Source: Planctomycetota bacterium (lineage in GTDB: Bacteria; Planctomycetota; Phycisphaerae; UBA1845). From it: a stretch of 44,346 nt of DNA. The stretch lies in assembly GCA_024280855.1 (NCBI GenBank), contig JAJRPG010000097.1, positions 1 to 44,346 on the forward strand. The letters run 5' to 3'. A model generated the notes under the pieces. That model made no database searches, was not told the DNA's origin, and saw only the letters and a program-made list of their open reading frames with translations. The stretch's first letter is position 1. Every line of letters starts with the position of its first letter. The position numbers and the translations under genes are program-made. Below, piece by piece: positions 225-37,455 of this stretch.

Positions 225-896
225 ATGGGTGAGCAAGCTAAAAAAAAGTAACAAGAAACCCGCCTCACCCCAGAGCCGTTAACCACCTGCCCGAAGTGTA
301 CCTACGCGCTCACCGGCCTGCCGAGCGCCCACCGCTGCCCAGAGTGCGGGTTTGAGTATGATGCTTATGCGTGGTCGTGGCTGGCTCCAGAGAAGAAATG
401 GCGTCGCTCAAGAACGTGGGAGATTATTTTTCTGATTTTGCAAATTGTTTGGGCTTGGCTGCTGTTGTCTCACACAAATTTCCATAAAGGATGGATACTC
501 AACGGAAATCTTTTAGGTGTAATAAGTATTTTTATGGCGATCTGTATTATCCTATGGTCACTACTTTCTCTCAAGCGACTGGTATTCGCCGATCCTCAAG
601 CGTTCATCGTAGCCTGTCCCGAAGGAATAATCGTATACGGTGCATGTGGCTTTAATTGTAGTGTGACGGGTTATATTAAGATGCCAGCGAACAAGCGAAC
701 CATCGCCTGGAACGAATTCGAAAATATCAGGGCTGTTGGGACAAAGCTCGTTGAATATAGATTGATGTGCGAAAACGAGGTGTGGTGCAATATCCGCCAA
801 TTCGTCAATAGCGAGGCCGAATTGAATGTATTACGGCGCGTACTTCTCGACGCCAAAGCTCATTACCTAAGCCTAGAGCAAGCGAACGAAAAATGA
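225..896 (+). pseudogene. Zinc-ribbon / two-TM protein, array copy 1, interrupted by a nonsense codon
   Basis: This is the first member of the tandem family described at 893-1534. The ATG at 225 is in frame with the zinc ribbon, but the ninth codon (249-251) is TAA. The other copies have a serine codon (TCA or TCC) here, so one C-to-A change explains the stop. Downstream the frame is intact: two CxxC pairs (cysteine codons from 288), two hydrophobic segments, a soluble C-terminal domain and the family tail (DAKAHYLSLEQANEK). The first in-frame ATG after the stop is at 438 and would drop the ribbon, leaving 152 residues. The stop codon overlaps the next gene's ATG by 4 nt. A sequencing error or readthrough is possible; pseudogene is the simplest reading. 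No clear ribosome-binding site precedes 225. Confidence 0.6.
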
Positions 897-1534
897 GTAG
901 CTCAGCCACAAAACCATCCCATGAAACCCGCCTCGCCCCAGAACCGCTAACCACCTGCCCGAAGTGTACCTACGCGCTCACCGGCTTGCCGAGCGCCCAC
1001 CGCTGCCCGGAGTGCGGGTTTGAGTTCGACGAATATTCATGGGTTTGGAAAGCTCCGAAGGAAAAGTGGAACCGAGCGAGACGACGTGCGATTACTCTAC
1101 ATTCAATCGTGGTCGCCATTTTCTCCTTGGCGATATTCAGTAACTGGTTGTTTCCTATTGGCACTGGCTTCGGCATGTATCTGAGGATTCTTTCTCTTTG
1201 GTATGTTGTTACATCAGTCCTTTTTCTTCACGAGTTGATTTTCCGTGATCGCCTGCCGGTCATTGTAGCCAACCAATATGGCGTAGCGGCCTACGGTTCC
1301 AAGTATTTTATGCGCCGACGATTTACCAAGCCATGTATCGCATGGACAGATCTAACAGATAGGAAAAAATACAAAGGAAAGCTAACAAAAGGCATTTGGC
1401 GACGAGACGAAAACCATATCTGGGACAAAATGAAGTTATTCATCCGTAACGACGTAGAGCGATCGACGTTTTGCACTGCATTACTCGACGCCAAAGCTCA
1501 TTACCTAAATCTGGAGCAAGCGAACGAAAAATGA
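893..1534 (+). CDS. Zinc-ribbon / two-TM protein of unknown function, array copy 2
   Basis: 213 residues. Residues 11-42 hold a conserved block with C22-x2-C25 and C38-x2-C41, the last part reading HRCPECGFEFDEYSW; this should bind one zinc. Two hydrophobic segments follow (about 67-88 and 94-116), so the protein is probably an inner-membrane protein with cytoplasmic ends. The C-terminal part (GVAAYG...IAWTDL) loosely resembles a bacterial PH-like domain; that is inference. The ribbon and the tail (LLDAKAHYLNLEQANEK) are nearly identical to other copies, while the middle differs strongly from copies 1, 4 and 5. The ATG overlaps the stop of copy 1 by 4 nt, so translation is likely coupled. Function unknown. 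Confidence 0.8.
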   Translation: MSSSATKPSHETRLAPEPLTTCPKCTYALTGLPSAHRCPECGFEFDEYSWVWKAPKEKWNRARRRAITLHSIVVAIFSLAIFSNWLFPIGTGFGMYLRILSLWYVVTSVLFLHELIFRDRLPVIVANQYGVAAYGSKYFMRRRFTKPCIAWTDLTDRKKYKGKLTKGIWRRDENHIWDKMKLFIRNDVERSTFCTALLDAKAHYLNLEQANEK

Positions 1535-2166
1535 GTAGCTCAGCCACAAAGCCATCCAAAGAAACCCGACTCGCGCCAGAGCCATTGACCACTTGCCCGA
1601 AGTGTACCTACGCGCTCACCGGCCTGCCGAGCGCCCACCGCTGCCCGGAGTGCGGGTTTGAGTTCGACGAGTATTCATGGGCTTGGCTTGCACCGGCTAA
1701 AAAGTGGCCACGCTTTCATTTTGTGATTTTAATTATGCTTTGGCTAGCAAATTTCATGTGGTGTACGCGTCTTTTTTATCAATGGACATCAGTAAGCTCT
1801 TATCCTGTATTTATCTTGTTCAGTATGCTATTGATGGCCATTGGGATTCTAGTTTTTATATTTAAGTTGTTTTTATTGAATCATCACCCGATGCTAGTTG
1901 TTACTGAGCAGGGGCTTACCGTACGCAAAGATTTTCGACCGCTCTTGTCACGTCTACCCACGCGAACATATGCTTGGTCAAGCATCATTAGTTTTAAGAA
2001 CGGGTCCGGGCTGCTCAGAAGTTACATGTGGGTAAATGTTAACTCGGGCTATTGGTTTCAAATAGGCCGATATGCACGAAACGAGGCCGAACGAGAAGCG
2101 CTGAAAAATTCTCTTACCGACGCTAGAGTCCACTATTTGTGCCTAATACCAACACCAGACAAATGA
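1531..2166 (+). CDS. Zinc-ribbon / two-TM protein of unknown function, array copy 3
   Basis: 211 residues from the ATG at 1531, which overlaps the preceding stop by 4 nt. The reading frame is open further upstream, to 1471, but the leader MSSSATKPSKET matches the starts of the sister copies and fixes the start. The four zinc-ribbon cysteines are at 22, 25, 38 and 41. Two strongly hydrophobic segments follow (about 63-85 and 90-115). The C-terminal domain has the family pattern of a short GLTV strand, then TYAWSSI. This is the most diverged copy at its C-terminus: the tail is DARVHYLCLIPTPDK, not the LEQANEK ending. Function unknown. Confidence 0.8.
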   Translation: MSSSATKPSKETRLAPEPLTTCPKCTYALTGLPSAHRCPECGFEFDEYSWAWLAPAKKWPRFHFVILIMLWLANFMWCTRLFYQWTSVSSYPVFILFSMLLMAIGILVFIFKLFLLNHHPMLVVTEQGLTVRKDFRPLLSRLPTRTYAWSSIISFKNGSGLLRSYMWVNVNSGYWFQIGRYARNEAEREALKNSLTDARVHYLCLIPTPDK

Positions 2167-2834
2167 GCAACTCAATCACCAACTCATCAAAAGAAACCCG
2201 CCTCGCCCCAGAGCCATTAACCACTTGCCCGAAGTGTACTTACGCGCTAACCGGCCTGCCGAGCGCCCACCGCTGCCCGGAATGCGGGTTTGAGTACGAT
2301 GCCTATTCGTGGGCTTGGTTGACGTCAGCCAAAAAGATTCGTCGTGCAAGAATGTGGTCCGTATTGTGGTTATTTTTTTTAATCTGTGTAGCTTCGTTAA
2401 TGTTGGCTGATCCACCATCCCCAACTGGCTGGTTTCTCAATGCGAAGTTAGCCGGCATCATCACTATTTTATTGCCAATCACTACGCTAATCCAAGCGTT
2501 TGTGACTATTCGTCGACTGGTGGTCTTCGATCCTCAATCCCTTATCGCAGTTTGCCCTGCAGGTATTATAATCTACGGATCATTCAACGTGTTTCAAGTA
2601 GGGAAGGGCGAAATGAAATTGCAAGATAACTGCAAGATCATAGCTTGGACTGACTTTCAAGACATCTTTGTCGTCGGAACAATGTTCGTTGAATATAGAT
2701 TGACGTGTGTAAACGAAGCGTGGTTGAATACTCGCCAATTCGTTCAAGACAAAGCAGAATTAGACATCCTCCGCCGCGCATTACTCGACGCCAAAGCCCA
2801 TTACCTAAGCCTAGAGCAAGCGAACAAACAATGA
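2163..2834 (+). CDS. Zinc-ribbon / two-TM protein of unknown function, array copy 4
   Basis: 223 residues. The start at 2163 is a 4-nt ATGA overlap with copy 3 and gives the family leader MSNSITNSSKET. Ribbon cysteines are 22, 25, 38 and 41. Hydrophobic segments lie at roughly 63-82 and 93-112. The C-terminal domain (residues about 120-223) closely resembles those of copies 1 and 5: PAGIIIYGS, IAWTDFQDI, FVEYRLTC and the tail DAKAHYLSLEQANKQ. The conserved domain probably folds as a small beta-rich, PH-like unit facing the cytoplasm (inference). Function unknown. Confidence 0.8.
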   Translation: MSNSITNSSKETRLAPEPLTTCPKCTYALTGLPSAHRCPECGFEYDAYSWAWLTSAKKIRRARMWSVLWLFFLICVASLMLADPPSPTGWFLNAKLAGIITILLPITTLIQAFVTIRRLVVFDPQSLIAVCPAGIIIYGSFNVFQVGKGEMKLQDNCKIIAWTDFQDIFVVGTMFVEYRLTCVNEAWLNTRQFVQDKAELDILRRALLDAKAHYLSLEQANKQ

Positions 2835-3505
2835 GCAACTCAGCTACCAACCCATCCCAAGAAACCTGTCTAGCCCCCGAACCGTTGACCAAGTGCGCGA
2901 AGTGTTTGTATTCGCTAACGGGCCTTCCGGATGGACATCGCTGCCCCGAATGCGGCTTTGAATATGACGCCTATTCTTGGGTGTGGATGCCATCACGGGC
3001 TGGCTGGCGGCGGTCTCGAATGTGGGCGATAGTCGCGCAGATAGCAAGCCTTATTGTCATAGTGTATCTCTTATCTGATACAGCAGTGTTAAACAAAGGT
3101 TGGATTCTAAACGGAGAATTTTTTGGAGTGGTGCGTATTTTTCTGATGACGGTCACTTTCTTATGGGGTTTATGGTTTCTGAGGCACTTACTTGTATCAG
3201 ATACTCAACCTTTCATCGTAGCCTGCCCCGAAGGAATTGTGATCTACGGCGCATTGGGAGCTGGAGCCAGTGTGTACAGATATAATTTTCTGCGAGGCAA
3301 TAAACGCACCATACCCTGGCCGGAATTCGTTGATATCGTCATAGCTGGGTCATTCTTTATCGAATATAGATTGACGTGTAAAAAACAGTTGTGGTGCAAC
3401 ACGCGCTCATACGTCAAAAGCGAAGCGGAGTTGGACATCTTGCGTAGCGCTCTTCTCGAAGCCAAAGATCATTACCTAAGTCTGGAACAAGCGCTAGATA
3501 CATGA
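2831..3505 (+). CDS. Zinc-ribbon / two-TM protein of unknown function, array copy 5
   Basis: 224 residues from the ATG at 2831, again a 4-nt overlap with the preceding stop. The frame is open upstream to 2705, but family alignment supports 2831. The ribbon keeps all four cysteines (C22, C25, C38, C41), yet the surrounding DNA is much more diverged than in copies 1-4 (CAKCLYSLTGLPDGHRCPEC). Two hydrophobic segments follow, at roughly 65-85 and 94-118. The C-terminal domain matches copies 1 and 4 (FIVACPEGIVIYGA, IPWPEFVDI, DHYLSLEQALDT). It looks like an older member that escaped the homogenisation seen in the others. Confidence 0.78.
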   Translation: MSNSATNPSQETCLAPEPLTKCAKCLYSLTGLPDGHRCPECGFEYDAYSWVWMPSRAGWRRSRMWAIVAQIASLIVIVYLLSDTAVLNKGWILNGEFFGVVRIFLMTVTFLWGLWFLRHLLVSDTQPFIVACPEGIVIYGALGAGASVYRYNFLRGNKRTIPWPEFVDIVIAGSFFIEYRLTCKKQLWCNTRSYVKSEAELDILRSALLEAKDHYLSLEQALDT

Positions 3506-11534: not shown

Positions 11535-12014
11535 ATGATTAATACCCACGAAAAACCTGAGTCAAAGCTTGGCCGTGATGCGCTGTTTTCGTTGTTTCGT
11601 AATCAGGCTTCGGCGCTGAGGCGCATGAAGCAGCTGGTGTTGCAGCAGCGGCAAGCTGTTACGCAAGATAATCCTGAGGACTTGTTGAACTTGCTGAAAC
11701 AAAGGCAAGTTGTCGTGGATGCATTGGTAGGCATGGGAGGGGAAATTAAACGGGTTCGCGGGCAATGGGACCGTCATCGTGATTCTCTCGCTCCCGATGA
11801 TCGAGCAGAGGCTTCTCAATTTATTCTTGAGATGACTAAATCTTTCGAAGAAATTATGGAATCGGATGCGCAGGATGTAAGGTCGCTGGTGGCGAAGAAG
11901 CAGTTGATTGGTAGTGCGTTACAAGCCACGCATACGACGGCTCATGTTGTGTCTGCTTACGCGGGGCAGGTGTTGCCATCTCGCGGAGTTTCTAAATTGG
12001 ATGAGGCTAGCTGA
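11535..12014 (+). CDS. FlgN-like flagellar export chaperone (putative)
   Basis: 159 residues from ATG 11535. An in-frame ATG at 11502 would overlap the previous gene, and neither has a clear ribosome-binding site. The protein is almost entirely helical, with heptad-like stretches (NQASALRRMKQLVLQQRQAVTQDN; LLNLLKQRQVVVDALVGM) and a C-terminal small-residue segment (VVSAYAGQV), the layout of FlgN, which escorts hook-filament junction proteins FlgK and FlgL. The assignment rests on pattern and position, not on a strong motif. Its stop overlaps the kinase start as TGATG, so the two are translationally coupled. Confidence 0.6.
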   Translation: MINTHEKPESKLGRDALFSLFRNQASALRRMKQLVLQQRQAVTQDNPEDLLNLLKQRQVVVDALVGMGGEIKRVRGQWDRHRDSLAPDDRAEASQFILEMTKSFEEIMESDAQDVRSLVAKKQLIGSALQATHTTAHVVSAYAGQVLPSRGVSKLDEAS

Positions 12015-12871
12015 TGGCGGTGTTGGCGACAAAAGAAAATGATCTCGTAGCTGTCATCGAAGCTTACAACGATGTGACAGAAAAGTTGAAGCATTCACAT
12101 GAAGTGCTTGGCAAAGAAGTCTATCGCCTGCGTGAAGCTTTGCATGAGAAAAATAAGGAGCTGGCGCGGCATGAGCGATTGGCTGCGCTCGGGCAGATGG
12201 CTGCTGGTCTGGCGCACGAAATTCGTAATCCGCTCGGCGGTATTGGTTTGTACTCGTCCTTGCTGGAAAAGGACTTGGCTGATCGACCTAAGCAGCAGCG
12301 TATTGCCAAATCAATTGGCGAAGGTGTATGCAATTTAGATAAGCTCGTTACGGATATTCTATCTTTTGCGAGAGGCGCTGAGCCTAACCGTCAACTGCAC
12401 CGATTGGCGCAGGCATTGGACAGTGTGAGTGTGCAAGCTGCGCCGCAGTTACGGGCGAAAGAGGTATCGCTTGAAATTGATCCGGCGTTGTATGACGTCA
12501 AGGTGTATGCCGATGTGTCGCAGCTTGAGCGGGCGATCATGAATCTTGTCTTTAATGCTGTGGATGCGGTTGATCGTGATGGTCATGTTTGGATTCGAGG
12601 TGGCGCTAGCCAAGAGAAAGCTTCGCATACTTGTATTGTTATTGAGGATGACGGGCCGGGCATTGAGCCTAGTTTGTTGAATCGTGTATTTGATCCGTTT
12701 TTTACGACTAAAGATACGGGAACTGGGCTTGGCCTGGCTATTGTGCATCGCATTATCGAGTCCAATGGTGGTTCGATTGCGGCTCGTGCGCGATCGGAGG
12801 GTGGCGCGTCTTTTCATATAGCGCTGCCCGTTTCGTGTGATGATACCCAACGTCTGGGATTGGAGGAATAA
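12014..12871 (+). CDS. Sensor histidine kinase, FlrB/FleS/AtoS type, without a sensor domain
   Basis: 285 residues, soluble. Residues 15-55 form a coiled coil. The HisKA domain has the H-box AAGLAHEIRNPL with the phosphorylated histidine at 68. The HATPase domain has N181 (NLVFNAVDAV), EDDGPGIEP, FDPFFTTKD and GTGLGLAI. No TM, PAS or GAF domain is present, so the input must come through the coiled coil or partner proteins, as for cytoplasmic flagellar kinases. It lies between a FlgN-like gene and a sigma-54 activator, 5 nt before the latter, and is the presumed cognate kinase controlling the flagellar genes downstream. Confidence 0.85.
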   Translation: MAVLATKENDLVAVIEAYNDVTEKLKHSHEVLGKEVYRLREALHEKNKELARHERLAALGQMAAGLAHEIRNPLGGIGLYSSLLEKDLADRPKQQRIAKSIGEGVCNLDKLVTDILSFARGAEPNRQLHRLAQALDSVSVQAAPQLRAKEVSLEIDPALYDVKVYADVSQLERAIMNLVFNAVDAVDRDGHVWIRGGASQEKASHTCIVIEDDGPGIEPSLLNRVFDPFFTTKDTGTGLGLAIVHRIIESNGGSIAARARSEGGASFHIALPVSCDDTQRLGLEE

Positions 12872-12876
12872 AATCG

Positions 12877-14259
12877 ATGGCTCGAATTTGTGTAGTGGAT
12901 GATAGCGATATTTTGAGAGAGTCCGTAGCTGAATCTCTTACCCGGGAAGATCATCGTGTCACGATGTTTGATGATCCTGTCGAGGCCTTGGCTTCCGTGA
13001 AACGTGTTGGCTTTGACTTGATTGTATCAGATTTGAAAATGCCACGCATGGATGGTGTGCAACTTGTTCGTGAGCTTCGTGCGGGCGGTTGCGATACGCC
13101 GGTGATTATGATGACGGCGTTTGCGACGGTGTCTACGGCAGTCGAAGCCATGAAGGCTGGGGCTTATGATTATTTACAAAAACCGTTTGATACTGCGGCG
13201 TTGAATGTTTTGGTCGATCGTGCGTTGGAGCATGATCGACTATCTCGAGAGAACGAGGCGTTGCGGAAATCTGTCGAGGATTTTCGCAAGCCGCGCATGC
13301 TGGCTGGGGATTCGCAGGTTATGCAGGCTCTCCGCGAGGAACTAACGCGGGTGGCTGCTAGTCATGCGACGGTGTTGGTTAGCGGGGAATCGGGGACTGG
13401 CAAGGAGTTGGTGGCTTCGTTTATTCATGCTCATTCGCCCAGGGCTGACCGTCCGATGTTGTGCTTAAATTGTGCGGCGCTTTCGGCGAATCTGCTGGAG
13501 AGCGAACTGTTTGGGCATGAGCGGGGCGCTTTTACTGGCGCGGACCGGACGCGAAAGGGGCGCTTTGAATTGGCTGATGGCGGCACGCTGCTATTAGACG
13601 AAATATCTGAAATGGCTCTTGGTTTGCAGGCGAAATTGCTTCGTGTGTTGCAAGAAGGTGAATTTGAGCGGGTGGGTAGTAGTACGACGCGACGGGCCGA
13701 TGTACGCATCATTGCGACGACCAATCGTAACCTGAAAGAGTGGGTGAGTAAGCGACGTTTTCGTGAAGATTTGTTTTATCGATTGAACGTGTTGCCAGTT
13801 ACGGTTGCGCCTTTGAGGGATCGTATTGAAGATGTCGCTGGTTTGGTGGCGCATTTTGCTGGCCGTTCTGGTGCGAGCCGAGACCGGAAGAGGCTGCAAT
13901 TTTCTCCGGCGGCGATGAAATTGTTGAATGAGTATCATTGGCCTGGCAACGTGCGAGAGCTTGAAAATGTTTGCGAGCGCGCGATGACGATTCGTGATGG
14001 CGATATTGTTTCTGGTGAAATGATCGAGCCTTGGTTGCGGGCGGAGGCTCGGACGATGACAGAGTTTGGTCCGCTGCGAGAAGGTCGGATGTTGCAAGAT
14101 ATGGAACGGCAGCTCATTGAAAAGACACTGGCTAGATATAGCGGTCATCGGGCGAAGTCGGCGAAGGCGCTTGGCATGGGCGTTCGGACGCTTGGTTTGA
14201 AAATTAAACAATGGCGAGAAGAGGCTGCGGCGACGCATGGCGCGGTGGCTGTTTATTAG
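12877..14259 (+). CDS. Sigma-54-dependent response regulator, FlrC/FleR type
   Basis: 460 residues in three domains. Receiver (1-120): acidic pair D8-D9, phosphorylation site D52, T80 and K102. AAA+ domain (about 141-380): Walker A GESGTGKE at 170-177 and the sigma-54-contacting loop GAFTGA at 217-222, both intact. The C-terminus is a Fis-type helix-turn-helix (AKSAKALGMGVRTLGLKIK). GGAGG precedes the ATG. With the adjacent kinase it forms an NtrC-family two-component system. Position directly before two sigma-54 promoter matches and flgB argues that it activates class III basal-body and hook genes, as FlrC, FleR or FlgR do in other bacteria. Confidence 0.9.
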   Translation: MARICVVDDSDILRESVAESLTREDHRVTMFDDPVEALASVKRVGFDLIVSDLKMPRMDGVQLVRELRAGGCDTPVIMMTAFATVSTAVEAMKAGAYDYLQKPFDTAALNVLVDRALEHDRLSRENEALRKSVEDFRKPRMLAGDSQVMQALREELTRVAASHATVLVSGESGTGKELVASFIHAHSPRADRPMLCLNCAALSANLLESELFGHERGAFTGADRTRKGRFELADGGTLLLDEISEMALGLQAKLLRVLQEGEFERVGSSTTRRADVRIIATTNRNLKEWVSKRRFREDLFYRLNVLPVTVAPLRDRIEDVAGLVAHFAGRSGASRDRKRLQFSPAAMKLLNEYHWPGNVRELENVCERAMTIRDGDIVSGEMIEPWLRAEARTMTEFGPLREGRMLQDMERQLIEKTLARYSGHRAKSAKALGMGVRTLGLKIKQWREEAAATHGAVAVY

Positions 14260-28140: not shown

Positions 28141-28215
28141 GTGTGGCGATCCGCCCACGATCGTCGATAGAACGTGGGTACACGGGTGGTCCGTGCGCGC
28201 ATAGGACTTTTTTGC

Positions 28216-29154
28216 ATGACAGCGCAAGAAAATGACAATCCAGCTCCTGGATCCCAGGCCGATGATAGTGGGGCTATTGACCAGGGAGACATCGATTCTA
28301 TGTTCGGATCCGATGCCCCGGCAGAAAACACCGAGACCCCAGGCGCAGATTCTGCGCAAAGTGAGCCGCCGGTAGTTGAAGAGCTTGTGGACGGTCCGCC
28401 ACCTATCGATCAGTCATCTATTGATGCCATGTTCGGCGGAGGGGATGCTTCGGAGCCTGCCGCGGAAACTGAGGCGGAAGCTGCTGGGCCTGCGGCTGTC
28501 GATCAATCAGATATCGATGCGATGTTCGGCGGAGATGCTGCGGCTAGCGAACCTGCGGCTGAACAAGCCGAAGAGTCCGGCGCGGCTGCCGTCGATCAAT
28601 CAGATATTGATGCCATGTTTGGTGGAGATGAATCCGAAGGTGATGCCGCAAGCGCTGATGTGGTCGCTACTCCTGCTGTGGATGAGCCTCCCGATGAACG
28701 CCTCGATACGCTCGGTCGCCCGTTTGATGCTGCCGCTGCTGAAATGGCCGCTGCTATCGCTGAAGAAAAAGAAGCTGCCGCCGCCGCTGCAGCCGCCGCG
28801 CCGCCTCCTCCACCGCCACCCCCACCTCCTCCGCCAGTACATACTGAAGCGGTAAGCCTGGAAGATTTTGGTAGCGAAGGCCTTGGTTCGATCGACCCGA
28901 AGCGTGTGACGATGCTGAGTGATGTGAAGCTTCGCGTTCGCGTCGAGCTTGGTCGGTCTCGCATGTTGGTGGAAGATGTATTGCAATTGGGAGAGGGCAG
29001 CGTTGTTGAGTTACAAAAGGCGGCTGGTGATCCAGTTGATATCATTGTCAATGAGCGGCTAATTGCCCGCGGTGAAGTGCTCGTGCTTAATGATAATTTT
29101 TGTGTTCGTATAAGTGAAATTGTAGCGACCGATCCGCACCGGGTTACGGTATAG
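28216..29154 (+). CDS. fliN: Flagellar motor switch protein FliN with four N-terminal DQxxIDxMFG repeats
   Basis: 312 residues, more than twice the usual ~137. Start ATG 28216 has AGGA ten bases upstream; the GTG at 28174 is rejected. Four copies of a (I/V)DQ(S/G)xID(A/S)MFG motif lie at 21-31, 64-74, 95-105 and 126-136, in acidic Ala/Pro-rich linkers. They resemble the LSQxEIDALL peptide by which FliM (and FliY) binds CheY-P. A tract of nine Ala then twelve Pro follows (about 189-209). The last ~80 residues are a SpoA/FliN domain ([55 protein letters not shown]). The C-terminal domain builds the base of the C-ring. Confidence 0.88.
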
Positions 29155-33241: not shown

Positions 33242-35347
33242 ATGGCGAAGTTTGAGATGTCAGGCGCGAAAGTTTTACAAAGCGTGTTGCGTTATCAGGG
33301 GATGGCGTTACCGGCAGTTGCGCTTTCGCTTATCCTTGTAATCCTGATCCCATTGCCGACAGCGGTGATGGATTTCATGTTGCTAGTTAATATCATGGTG
33401 TCAGGTATCGTTTTGCTGACAGTTATGTATATGAAAAAGCCGTTAGAGTTTTCATCATTTCCATCACTCCTGCTAGGCCTAACGCTATTTCGATTGGTTT
33501 TGAATACGGCTACGACGCGACTGATATTAACTAACGCCGATGCTGGATATGTTATCGAGACATTTGGTGGATTCGTAGCCCAAGGCTCTCTTGCGGTTGC
33601 GGTGATCATTTTTTCGATCATCGTCGTTATTCAGTTCGTTGTGATAACCAAAGGTGCGACAAGAATTGCCGAAGTCGCAGCTAGGTTTACGTTGGACGGT
33701 ATGCCGGGCAAGCAGATGGCTATCGACGCCGACCTTAATGCAGGGATTATTACCGATGAGGACGCGAAAGAACGACGGTCTGAAATTACGCGAGAAGCCG
33801 ACTTTTATGGTGCGATGGACGGAGCCAGCAAGTTTGTGCGCGGTGATGCCATCGCTGGTCTTATCATTACGCTCATCAACATCGTAGGTGGTGTGTATGT
33901 CGGCTTGGTGGAGAAGGGGTTTGATATCGTAGAAACCTTGCGCACTTTTACGATTCTCACTATAGGTGACGGTTTAGTCTCTCAGATTCCTGCTTTTATT
34001 GTTTCTGTCGCAGCGGCCATGATCGTGACACGGTCAGCATCCAAGAAAAATCTTGGCGAGGAATTGATCGATCAGGTGACAAGTCAGCCTATCGCGCTGG
34101 CTATGATTGCCGGTTTTTTATGCATCTTGGCGCTAACGCCATTGCCTAAGGCGCCGCTCTTTGTGCTGGCATTGTCCAGCGGGACGATGGCCTATTTGCT
34201 ACAACAGAAATCAAAAGTGGCTGTAGTTAAGGCTGCGGCTGCCAAAGTCAAACCGGCTGAGCCTGACCGTATTGAAAGTCATTTGTCGCCAGACCCTATG
34301 GAAATGAATGTGGGGTACGGCTTGATCAAACTGGTGGACCGTAAGCAGGGTGGTGACTTGCTCGATCGTATTACGAATTTACGCAAGCAAATAGCTATGG
34401 AGTTGGGCATCGTTGTGCCGCCTATTCGTATTCGAGACGACATACAGCTTGAGCCTAATGCGTTCCAGATTAATCTCAAAGGTTTCGAAATTGGGCGTGG
34501 TGAATTACTCCCCAATCATTTGATGGCTATTGATTCCGGCGCGGTATCAGAACGTATCAATGGGATGGACACGAAAGAGCCTGCGTTTGGTCTGCCGTCG
34601 CTTTGGATTGAAGAGTCACAGCGGCATGAGGCTGAGCATCGTAACTATACGGTGGTAGAGCCGACGAGCGTAGTGACAACTTACCTGACGGAGCTTATCA
34701 AACGACACGCTGACGAGTTACTGACACGAAAAGAAGTGAACCGATTGTTAGACAATCTGCGCGAACGGTCTCCAAAACTTGTTGAGGAGGTGATTCCCGA
34801 TGTACTCAAGCCAGGTGAAGTGCAGCGGGTGTTGCAGGCTTTGCTGCGTGAGCGTGTGGGTATTCGTGATTTAGAAAGTATTTTGGAAACTATTGGCGAC
34901 TGGGCTTCGCGCACGAAAGATACTGAGATACTCACAGAGTATGCTCGAAATGCACTGGCTCGTGGATTATGTCACCAACACAAGGGCGAAGATGGTCGAA
35001 TACATTGCATTACGTTTGATCCTTCGGTGGAAGAAGCCATCGCTAAGAGCATTGACCGCACGGACCGGGGCACAATTTTGACCATGCCCGGGCATATGCA
35101 AAGCCGGGTTGTCCAGGCGATAAGTGAAACTGTTGAGAAGGCGGCCTTGGCGATGAAGGGACGGCCGCCTGTCATTTTGTGTCCACCGCAAATTAGAGCG
35201 TGGGTGCGAAAAATGATTGAAGTTAAGCTCCCTGCTGTCGTGGTTCTGTCATATAACGAAGTCGTTCGTGGTTTTGAGGTCGAGTCTCATGGGATGGTTA
35301 CATTAAGGGATGATACTGAAAACGTTTCGCGCACAAACAATGGCTGA
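33242..35347 (+). CDS. flhA: Flagellar export protein FlhA
   Basis: 701 residues, standard length. Eight TM helices in residues 1-330 with the FHIPEP-family signature READFYGAMDGASKFVRGD at 184-202, then the cytoplasmic ring domain that binds chaperone-substrate complexes (FlgN, FliT, FliS). FlhA couples ion flow to export. Its 3' end overlaps flhF by 38 nt in another frame. Confidence 0.97.
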   Translation: MAKFEMSGAKVLQSVLRYQGMALPAVALSLILVILIPLPTAVMDFMLLVNIMVSGIVLLTVMYMKKPLEFSSFPSLLLGLTLFRLVLNTATTRLILTNADAGYVIETFGGFVAQGSLAVAVIIFSIIVVIQFVVITKGATRIAEVAARFTLDGMPGKQMAIDADLNAGIITDEDAKERRSEITREADFYGAMDGASKFVRGDAIAGLIITLINIVGGVYVGLVEKGFDIVETLRTFTILTIGDGLVSQIPAFIVSVAAAMIVTRSASKKNLGEELIDQVTSQPIALAMIAGFLCILALTPLPKAPLFVLALSSGTMAYLLQQKSKVAVVKAAAAKVKPAEPDRIESHLSPDPMEMNVGYGLIKLVDRKQGGDLLDRITNLRKQIAMELGIVVPPIRIRDDIQLEPNAFQINLKGFEIGRGELLPNHLMAIDSGAVSERINGMDTKEPAFGLPSLWIEESQRHEAEHRNYTVVEPTSVVTTYLTELIKRHADELLTRKEVNRLLDNLRERSPKLVEEVIPDVLKPGEVQRVLQALLRERVGIRDLESILETIGDWASRTKDTEILTEYARNALARGLCHQHKGEDGRIHCITFDPSVEEAIAKSIDRTDRGTILTMPGHMQSRVVQAISETVEKAALAMKGRPPVILCPPQIRAWVRKMIEVKLPAVVVLSYNEVVRGFEVESHGMVTLRDDTENVSRTNNG

Positions 35348-36557
35348 GGCTCTGTCTCAGGTTAAGAAGGAATTCGGCTCAGATGCTGTGATTCTCAATA
35401 CTCGAAGTCTGCCCAAACGGCTAGGCTCCGGTCGCCAATTGGTTGAATTGACAGCCGCTCGTCAGAAACAGGATTTGCCAGTAGAACTTCGCACTGGTAC
35501 GATTCCCATGAGGTCGGGGCGGGAAGATCAGTCACAAGCAGATGGAGCTGCCACAGTGATGACAGGCGCGGGCCAATCCAGAATGTCTGGCGAGTCAAGC
35601 TCGTTAGCGGCGGAGCTGTCCAGTCTGAAATCATTAGTGGGCGAGTTGGTTCAACATCATCGACGAGATGGCATGAGTGACGCCCCCAAGGCACTTTTTG
35701 ACGCGCATCAACAATTAATCACCAACGATGTTGCCGAGCAATTAGCCTCTGAGTTAATTGAAGACCTCAAGCGATCATTGCCTAAAAAGTCGCAAGAAGA
35801 TCCGCGGGCTATTCGCCGCCATTTAGCGAGTTCTATAGCCAAAATGATCCCTTCGGTTTTACCAGGTGAATTATCTTCATTGACGGGGCAGCGTGTGATT
35901 GCCTTGGTTGGTCCTACTGGAGTGGGAAAAACGACTACAATAGCTAAAATAGCCGCGAATTATAGATTGCGTCAGCATAAGCGCGTCGGGCTAATCACGA
36001 TCGATACATACCGAATCGCAGCCGTGCAGCAGTTGCAAACCTACGCCCAAATTATCGACGTGCCGATTGAAGTCGCTGCGACGCCGATGCAGTTTCGCGG
36101 GGCGCTAAGTCGTCTAAAAGATTGCGACATCATTTTGATAGACACCGCCGGGCGCAGTCAGCGCGACAAAGCGAAAAACGATGAGTTGCAGGTGTTTTTT
36201 GATATTCAAAAACCGGATGAAATTCATCTTGTGCTTTCGACAACTTCTAGTCCACAAGTTTTGAAGCAATCCATTGAGCGATTCAGGTCAACAGGTTTCG
36301 ATCGTTTGATCCTGACCAAGCTGGATGAAGCCGTTGGTTTTGGCGTTATTCTTGCTTGTTTAATCAAAGCTAAAACGAAGCTATCGTACTTAACGATGGG
36401 GCAGGAAGTGCCGGATGATATTACGGTAGGCGAAGGCAATCTTGTGGCTAGGATGATTTTGAATGGTAGTGATACGCCGGTGTCAGTTATGGGTATACAA
36501 AGTAAAGTGACACCCTCTGGCACATCGTCACTGGTTTCGCATTCGCGCGTCGGGTAG
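35310..36557 (+). CDS. flhF: Flagellar placement GTPase FlhF
   Basis: 415 residues. The start at 35310 lies inside flhA and gives the correct family N-terminus (MILKTFRAQTMAEALSQVKK). A basic/variable B domain (about 50-150) precedes the SRP-type NG domain with G1 GPTGVGKTTT at 201-210, then ITIDTYRIAAVQQLQ, LIDTAGRSQRDK and LILTKLDEA. FlhF sets the site and number of polar flagella, with FlhG as its regulator. Confidence 0.95.
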   Translation: MILKTFRAQTMAEALSQVKKEFGSDAVILNTRSLPKRLGSGRQLVELTAARQKQDLPVELRTGTIPMRSGREDQSQADGAATVMTGAGQSRMSGESSSLAAELSSLKSLVGELVQHHRRDGMSDAPKALFDAHQQLITNDVAEQLASELIEDLKRSLPKKSQEDPRAIRRHLASSIAKMIPSVLPGELSSLTGQRVIALVGPTGVGKTTTIAKIAANYRLRQHKRVGLITIDTYRIAAVQQLQTYAQIIDVPIEVAATPMQFRGALSRLKDCDIILIDTAGRSQRDKAKNDELQVFFDIQKPDEIHLVLSTTSSPQVLKQSIERFRSTGFDRLILTKLDEAVGFGVILACLIKAKTKLSYLTMGQEVPDDITVGEGNLVARMILNGSDTPVSVMGIQSKVTPSGTSSLVSHSRVG

Positions 36558-36570
36558 ATGGAAGTGTACC

Positions 36571-37455
36571 ATGGCTAATAGGCATACAACTCGCATTCGA
36601 CGTGGCGTCAAGGTGGACCAGGCATCCAGGCTTCGCGCATTGGTTGAAGGTTCGCGCCCCAGTGCATTCACCGTGGCTATTACCAGTGGCAAAGGCGGCG
36701 TTGGTAAATCGAACACGGCTGTGAACTTGTCCATCTGTCTCGCTGCTAAGGGCGTTCGCGTTGTACTTGTTGATTTGGATATGGGCCTTGCCAATGCTGA
36801 TTTGTTGATGAACATGCCTAACACGACCACGCTGGCTGATGTCTTAGCTGGTTCGCATACGCTGGAGGAGGTTTGTCAGATCGGCCCAGGCGGTATTCGA
36901 TTTGTACCAGGCGCTTCCGGCATTGAAGAGCTAGCGAATTTATCCGAATTTGACAGACAGGGCGTTATTTCGCAATTGCACCAATTGGAAACCAGTGCTG
37001 ATATCGTCATTCTGGATTGTGGTGCTGGCATCTCGCGCAACGTGGTTGGGTTCGCGCTAGCGGCTGACCAGGCAATGGTTGTCACTACCCCAGAGCCTAC
37101 TGCCTTGACGGATGCCTATGCGACAATCAAGACGTTGCATGCCCAGGGCTTCGCTGGGAAGGTCACAACTTTTGTGAATATGGCTCATAGTCGAGCCGAA
37201 GCGCGGGCGACCTATGAACGTCTTTCTGGCGTAGCTGAAAATTTTTTAAATTATTCCGTTGCATATGCTGGCTATATGCTGCATGATACGTCTGTCGAGC
37301 AGGCAGTACGGCAGCGTGTGCCATTTGTCATACGTCATCCGGACTCAAATGCCAGTGCCTGCATCGCCGCAGTAGCAGATGGTTTGGTCAAGCAGTGTAA
37401 AGGCCAACGTGCTGGCGGCGGTTTTTTTCGACGGGTTGTCGGTTTGTTCGTGTAG
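36571..37455 (+). CDS. flhG: Flagellar number regulator FlhG (FleN/YlxH), MinD-like ATPase
   Basis: 294 residues. Near the N-terminus DQASRLRAL (16-24) is the DQAxxLR motif by which FlhG stimulates the FlhF GTPase. The deviant Walker A is SGKGGVGKS (39-47), followed by VVLVDLDMGLANADLL and VILDCGAGIS. The C-terminus ends GGGFFRRVVGLFV, a probable amphipathic membrane-targeting helix. It limits flagellar number. GGAAG precedes the ATG; 13 nt after flhF. Confidence 0.95.
   Translation: MANRHTTRIRRGVKVDQASRLRALVEGSRPSAFTVAITSGKGGVGKSNTAVNLSICLAAKGVRVVLVDLDMGLANADLLMNMPNTTTLADVLAGSHTLEEVCQIGPGGIRFVPGASGIEELANLSEFDRQGVISQLHQLETSADIVILDCGAGISRNVVGFALAADQAMVVTTPEPTALTDAYATIKTLHAQGFAGKVTTFVNMAHSRAEARATYERLSGVAENFLNYSVAYAGYMLHDTSVEQAVRQRVPFVIRHPDSNASACIAAVADGLVKQCKGQRAGGGFFRRVVGLFV

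Follow-up and report, generated by a model that had tools for sequence, protein, structure and literature searches.

Four EIDAL-type motifs in a planctomycete FliN form a candidate multivalent docking arm for phosphorylated CheY

The FliN protein encoded in a planctomycete flagellar gene cluster carries, within its first 140 residues, four copies of a (I/V)DQxxIDxMFG motif that follows the residue pattern of the CheY-P-binding peptide of FliM, followed by a conserved block, an Ala9-Pro12 tract and a SpoA domain. Comparison of this protein with those of its relatives makes it fairly probable that the tail acts as a docking arm, flexible and multivalent, for CheY in its phosphorylated form. The gene lies in what is referred to here as the window, the whole 44,346-nucleotide stretch of DNA that was analyzed, which makes up contig C11 in a draft assembly of 4.56 Mb; all coordinates without a contig name are window positions.

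The fliN gene occupies positions 28216 to 29154 of the forward strand and encodes 312 residues when translated from the ATG at 28216. A longer ORF with a GTG start begins at 28174, but the ATG is the likely start, because the FliN proteins of two genomes of the same genus also begin with MTAQEN. The translated protein matched the TIGR02480 model for FliN (102 bits, cut-off 84.05) and Pfam FliMN_C (PF01052; 80.5 bits, cut-off 23.8), indicating a FliN-type SpoA domain, and PF01052 was the only family above cut-off in the Pfam scan. The window ORFs around fliN read as flagellar by eye, and on the same reading a fliL-like ORF lies on one side of the gene and fliO- and fliP-like ORFs on the other; a fliM gene is present elsewhere in the genome, on contig C44. 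Genes for a histidine kinase and a sigma-54 response regulator (12014-14259), presumably an FlrB/FlrC-like pair by domain order, also adjoin flagellar genes in the window. Elsewhere in the window, at 893-3505, a near-identical start (..RLAPEPLT.C.KC.Y.LTGLP..HRCPECGFE..) recurs in four consecutive ORFs; it looks zinc-ribbon-like by eye, and the two ORFs that were scanned had no Pfam match.

The four motif copies, all on the forward strand and located both by translation and by a FliM-derived matrix, lie at 28276-28308, 28405-28437, 28498-28530 and 28591-28623, beginning at residues 21, 64, 95 and 126 with a copy-to-copy spacing of 129, 93 and 93 bases. Downstream are the 23-residue conserved block identified by alignment (28699-28767), the Ala9-Pro12 tract (28774-28836, with the nine alanines at 28774-28800 and the twelve prolines at 28801-28836) and an ordinary SpoA domain delimited by the profile matches (28906-29130). 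Apart from the conserved block, this is the order given in a preliminary description of the gene, although the tract and the SpoA domain fall outside the interval 28216-28626 to which that description had assigned the whole arrangement. An AlphaFold2 model built from 25 aligned sequences predicted one short helix per motif copy (residues 23-30, 66-73, 97-104 and 128-135) and one long helix over the conserved block (residues 170-194). With a mean pLDDT of 60.1 and a pTM of 0.27, and because parts even of the SpoA domain fall below a pLDDT of 50, this model is only suggestive. A search of the repeat region against solved structures found no match up to an E-value of 10.

The preliminary description also likened the repeats to the CheY-P peptide at the FliM N-terminus, and this likeness was borne out. 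A scoring matrix built exclusively from 36 FliM N-termini, with no FliN input, found the repeats, assigning the four copies scores of 8.6, 14.2, 14.6 and 14.6, and FliM of the same genome, which starts MADVLDQSEVDALL, has the motif LDQSEVDALL. The copies also conform to the pattern by which we defined the motif, LxQ-x-(E/D)-(I/V)-D-A-(L/M)-(L/F). FliM sites themselves score 26-32 on this matrix, compared to 8.6-14.6 for the FliN copies, so that the latter appear to be relatives of the FliM motif in pattern rather than copies of it, the match being clear but not identical. When the FliN tail was shuffled 20,000 times, the best site per shuffle had its 99.9% level at 13.0, and the highest score of all was 16.9; three of the four window copies exceed the 99.9% level. 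One such site could therefore be due to chance, but three or four hardly. At the DNA level, a degenerate pattern for the motif occurred at 13 places in the genome, compared to 11 for a reversed-pattern control. The 13 places included the four FliN copies, one site in FliM, one in a second FliN-like protein, two in ORFs that appear flagellin-like by eye and one in another ORF, while the last four, whose reading frames were not established, failed a stricter protein expression.

The motif copies proved to be shared by related planctomycetes, for which the preliminary description had proposed a count. The FliN query matched in 36 of 40 genomes searched, its own included, and since the match in one of these (G010) was a second FliN-like protein, 35 FliN proteins were retained, 28 of which have at least one matrix match and 18 at least two; by a canonical motif expression, 29 have at least one copy and 16 at least two, with a maximum of four. 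A second set was drawn from the nearest named records, titled Phycisphaerae or Planctomycetota, nearly all metagenome-assembled genomes (MAGs), and shares about 15 genomes with the first; 3 of its 80 loci gave no readable FliN ORF and were dropped. At least one matrix match was present in 44 of the remaining 77 named FliN proteins and at least two in 25, with a maximum of six. Among 7,700 shuffled tails, 68 had one match and none had two. The FliN of a genome titled Planctomycetales bacterium (L177) has three divergent copies. The matrix threshold of 9 undercounts, with the first window copy scoring 8.6 and the FliN of G002 credited with one match compared to three by expression, and many of the FliN proteins were read as stop-to-stop frames that may include slight upstream sequence. 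Within a set of 107 motif copies, only about ten positions are conserved (Q in 106, I in 104, D in 105 and A in 101), a count that is partly circular given that these instances were picked by matrix score.

These comparisons bear on whether the repeats might be low-complexity, acidic and alanine-rich sequence of unrelated function that resembles the FliM peptide by chance. The FliN sequence surrounding the motifs is indeed of low complexity, and single matrix matches do arise in shuffled tails, as noted above. Nevertheless, the shuffle controls for several copies, the presence of the motif in each of the three SpoA proteins that this genome encodes and the lack of any other Pfam match above cut-off leave a chance resemblance highly improbable.

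A different question is whether all of the copies matter. It is conceivable, though we think it unlikely, that a single inherited motif is useful and that tandem duplication has added extra copies without function. Copy number is labile, ranging from zero to six, and the six-copy FliN (L119) consists of a tandem array of near-identical units, both of which speak for such an expansion. Against neutral expansion, copies 3 and 4 of the window FliN differ by four synonymous and no nonsynonymous changes in 13 motif codons, compared to five synonymous and 11 nonsynonymous differences in the 18 linker codons that precede them. Because the changes in the motif are all synonymous while the linker has diverged, the motif, but not the linker, looks to be under purifying selection between these two copies. 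Furthermore, within one clade of the FliM tree (36 rows, support 89/85), 20 of the 30 genomes with chemotaxis genes have at least two canonical copies.

The regions between the motifs and the SpoA domain differed in their conservation. The block downstream of the motifs, with the consensus (E)RLDSxGRPFDEAAAAMAAAIEEE, was present by one pattern in 42 of 85 FliN proteins and largely accompanied the motifs: both were found in 41 proteins, neither in 30, the motif only in 12 and the block only in 2. Counted by genome, the block occurs in 40 of 68 with chemotaxis and 3 of 17 without, and it is shortened in G001, a genome of the same genus. Its role may be in coupling between tail and ring. The Ala9-Pro12 tract, in contrast, is not conserved in relatives. 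The preliminary description had regarded the polyproline as a stiff spacer, but as a conserved part of the design it had to be rejected: among the 85 FliN proteins, a run of 12 prolines is private to the window genome, two others reach seven, and the longest run is 1-4 in the remaining 82, with runs of only three and two in the two genomes of the same genus. The 12-proline run (28801-28836) may require EF-P for translation; in Bacillus subtilis, an SPP motif makes FliY a target of EF-P (PMC6613710).

The motif is not confined to FliM and FliN in this genome. A second, short FliN-like protein (FliN2; L003, G000:C42:26062-26271) carries MGLSQADINALF, so that all three SpoA proteins possess the motif. 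FliN2 proteins with such a motif are common in the relatives, a single EIDAL-type copy near the start having been found in 19 of 20 FliN2 homologs fetched from 22 second-SpoA matches (L215-L234). FliN2 resembles the window FliN in having a SpoA domain and an EIDAL-type motif, but it differs in its single motif, its short linker and a score below the TIGR02480 cut-off. FliM shares the residue pattern of the FliN copies, which are predicted to form short helices, but bears it once at the N-terminus, whereas the window FliN has four internal copies and lacks the single, N-terminal placement typical of FliM. FliY proteins of the B. subtilis type likewise combine an EIDAL motif with a C-terminal SpoA domain (PMC12826062). 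They have a CheC-like domain between the two, however, and none was detected in the window FliN, which also scored below cut-off with the FliY models PRK08119 and PRK08432; FliY identity was consequently rejected for lack of a CheC domain and the protein filed as FliN. EIDAL motifs in FliN have been described as occurring "sporadically", in an analysis covering 12 bacteria from the spirochetes, Firmicutes, Epsilonproteobacteria and Gammaproteobacteria, and the section of that paper on these proteins names no planctomycete group and mentions no FliN with several copies (PMC6946799). Among the open-access papers listed in our survey, no report of several EIDAL copies in one FliN was found. A single EIDAL motif in FliN is thus already known, and the multi-copy FliN is a variant that we have not met among the papers listed.

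The window genome has two CheA matches or loci, seven CheW matches, two CheX proteins and CheY homologs, as well as CheD and CheR by eye. Its CheY homologs match solved CheY chains that include 1f4v and 4iga, which we take to be structures of CheY with a FliM peptide. In FliM and FliY, the EIDAL motif is the site to which CheY-P binds first and with high affinity (PMC9126983). The absence of chemotaxis genes from some relatives provided a natural experiment. Among the 85 genomes with FliN, 68 were scored as having chemotaxis and 17 as lacking it, although gaps in a draft MAG can make chemotaxis genes seem absent. Lack of chemotaxis was defined as no CheA and no CheW match (16 genomes), with G001, whose CheW is broken, added by judgement; G076, which has a CheW fragment at a contig edge, was counted with chemotaxis, and G025 without it despite one MCP match. 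The CheA screen covered 50 of the 80 named genomes, 15 duplicates of relatives and 15 further genomes being set aside, and the MCP search covered genomes other than those 50. CheA alone was rejected as a marker of chemotaxis, since CheW or MCP matches turned up in some genomes without a CheA match.

In comparisons uncorrected for shared descent, FliN proteins with several motifs were concentrated in genomes with chemotaxis. At least two matrix matches were found in 33 of 68 genomes with chemotaxis compared to 2 of 17 without (Fisher's test, p = 0.006), and at least two canonical copies in 29 of 68 compared to 1 of 17 (p = 0.004). For at least one canonical copy, the counts were 45 of 68 and 5 of 17 (p = 0.012), and for at least one matrix match 46 of 68 and 7 of 17, with a p-value of only 0.054. 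The tests were repeated with G001 moved, with the three genomes G001, G025 and G076 omitted, and with G007 and G029, which are less complete, omitted; those for two or more copies gave p-values of 0.0008-0.019, and that for at least one matrix match 0.017-0.075. With regard to descent, a FliM tree of the 61 genomes in which FliM was read, 21 of whose 58 inner branches are unresolved and on which G048 and G084 form long branches of unsure place, requires about 12 changes of the chemotaxis label, eight of them forced by well-supported branches, and the label clusters weakly, with 26-32 of 500 shuffles being as low. Within the 36-row clade, all but one of the 30 genomes that have chemotaxis retain a canonical copy, compared to 3 of the 6 that lack it, and a rank test on copy counts gave p = 0.006. 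The association is not absolute. Of the 68 genomes with chemotaxis, 22 have a FliN without any matrix match, among them most of the basal group and three of the four f4 genomes (FliN of the fourth, G039, has IDQAELDALA), and because of these 22 genomes the copies are an elaboration of chemotaxis, not a requirement for it. Conversely, among genomes without chemotaxis, G007, G025, G029 and G047 have one canonical copy each, and G001, which has no CheA or MCP match, retains two canonical copies besides a third that is altered. All that was found of CheW in G001 is a remnant split over two reading frames and interrupted by a stop (G001:C23:57394-57623), and this genome seems to have lost chemotaxis recently.

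A serious rival ligand, which the preliminary description had not considered, is FlhG. The window contains flhF (35310-36557, forward strand; TIGR03499, 236.4 bits, cut-off 174.15), directly followed by a gene for a MinD-family ATPase (36571-37455, forward strand) that scores below the cut-offs of MinD-like models and that we read as flhG by synteny. According to PMC12826062, FlhG binds the N-terminus of FliM in polar flagellates, whereas in B. subtilis it binds FliY. By analogy, the FliN repeats might be docking sites for FlhG, which would load FliN and FliM onto the growing C-ring and set flagellar number or position. FlhG thus binds the same kind of motif in those proteins, the flhF and flhG-like genes lie in the same cluster as fliN, and G001 has retained its FliN motifs without chemotaxis. 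The distribution of the genes is harder to reconcile with this role, which we regard as improbable for the FliN repeats. All 17 genomes without chemotaxis have an FlhG-like match (six from one search at E-values up to 1e-20 and 11 from another, in which matches near 36% identity could be other MinD-family proteins), yet 12 of the 17 have no canonical FliN copy. G045 and G048, for example, have no CheA or CheW match and no canonical copy, yet their FlhG matches are at 64-65% identity. In the opposite direction, G005, which is 99% complete and has CheA and MCP matches, has three matrix matches and three canonical copies but no FlhG match, including in a 13.9-kb stretch around flhF, and G053, without FlhG at E-values up to 1e-8, has three matrix matches and one canonical copy; divergent FlhG-like genes, such as those of G022 and G036, were missed at E-values up to 1e-20 and found by a later search. 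In G005 (contig C31, L181), a 220-residue open frame occupies the place expected for flhG, between flhF and a sigma-factor-like ORF. Because the FliN copies are mostly gone from genomes without chemotaxis though FlhG-like genes stay, chemotaxis, and hence CheY, is pointed to as the keeper of the copies; on gene content, they appear to follow chemotaxis more than FlhG, though imperfectly and without phylogenetic correction.

FliM behaved differently. In the 61 genomes where it was read, the FliM motif is intact in all 45 with chemotaxis and in 13 of 16 without, compared to at least one canonical FliN copy in 34 of 45 and 4 of 16, respectively. Since the FliM motif persists in most genomes without chemotaxis, EIDAL-type motifs need not serve CheY alone, and this pattern suggests a further reason for the FliM motif to persist, perhaps FlhG. 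The two ligands might then have divided the motifs between them, the FliM motif being held mainly by FlhG or assembly and the capture of CheY-P having passed to the FliN repeats, a possibility that we advance tentatively. The retention of the motif by FliM in 13 of the 16 genomes without chemotaxis, compared to a canonical one by FliN in only 4, is in keeping with such a division. However, the FliN copies are more labile even where chemotaxis is present, 11 of 45 such genomes having no canonical copy, and G030, G034 and G082, which lack chemotaxis and whose FliN proteins have no copies, have lost the FliM glutamine to proline (LDP[NS]EV[ND]AL) despite an FlhG-like gene. This division is compatible with a CheY-P docking arm, and the readings may overlap in other ways too, with the same sites serving both CheY and FlhG or with part of the copies being neutral.

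For the docking arm, we infer CheY-P binding, its stoichiometry and any effect on switching. Each FliN copy would form a short helix like that of the FliM N-terminus and hold one CheY-P. Borne on flexible linkers, the helices would catch CheY-P near the C-ring base, and with four of them on every FliN the ring would offer many times more capture sites. Captured CheY-P would then be passed on to a second site on FliM or FliN, in line with a two-step scheme in which CheY-P is bound first and then engages a second site (PMC9126983). An early biochemical estimate for well-studied C-rings, quoted in PMC7355467, places FliN at 3-4 fold the abundance of FliM; with four copies on each FliN, this would provide several hundred sites per motor, compared to about 34 from FliM. 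Such a tail could sharpen or buffer switching or serve as a reservoir of CheY-P, which the CheX homologs of the window genome could clear. Counting against CheY-P docking, FliY of Thermotoga maritima was found to have no higher affinity for activated CheY, according to the same source.

More speculatively, the C-ring of these bacteria may carry EIDAL-type sites on FliM (one), FliN2 (one) and FliN (zero to six), with duplicated FliN arrays acting as a high-capacity trap for CheY-P with hundreds of sites per motor, so that the number of sites, not their affinity, would set sensitivity, while the FliM motif would serve mainly in assembly through FlhG. We hold this wider picture to be possible, though doubtful as a whole. 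Central to thinking on motor switching is the view that the FliM tail works as a tether, raising the concentration of CheY-P for a second site. In these planctomycetes, the number of such putative tethers varies from none to six on the ring protein that would be the more abundant one, and the species compared are related but differ in whether they have chemotaxis genes. Nature thus offers a dose series that could be used to test whether tether number sets the sensitivity of the switch, and the same series could test for competition between FlhG and CheY for one motif.
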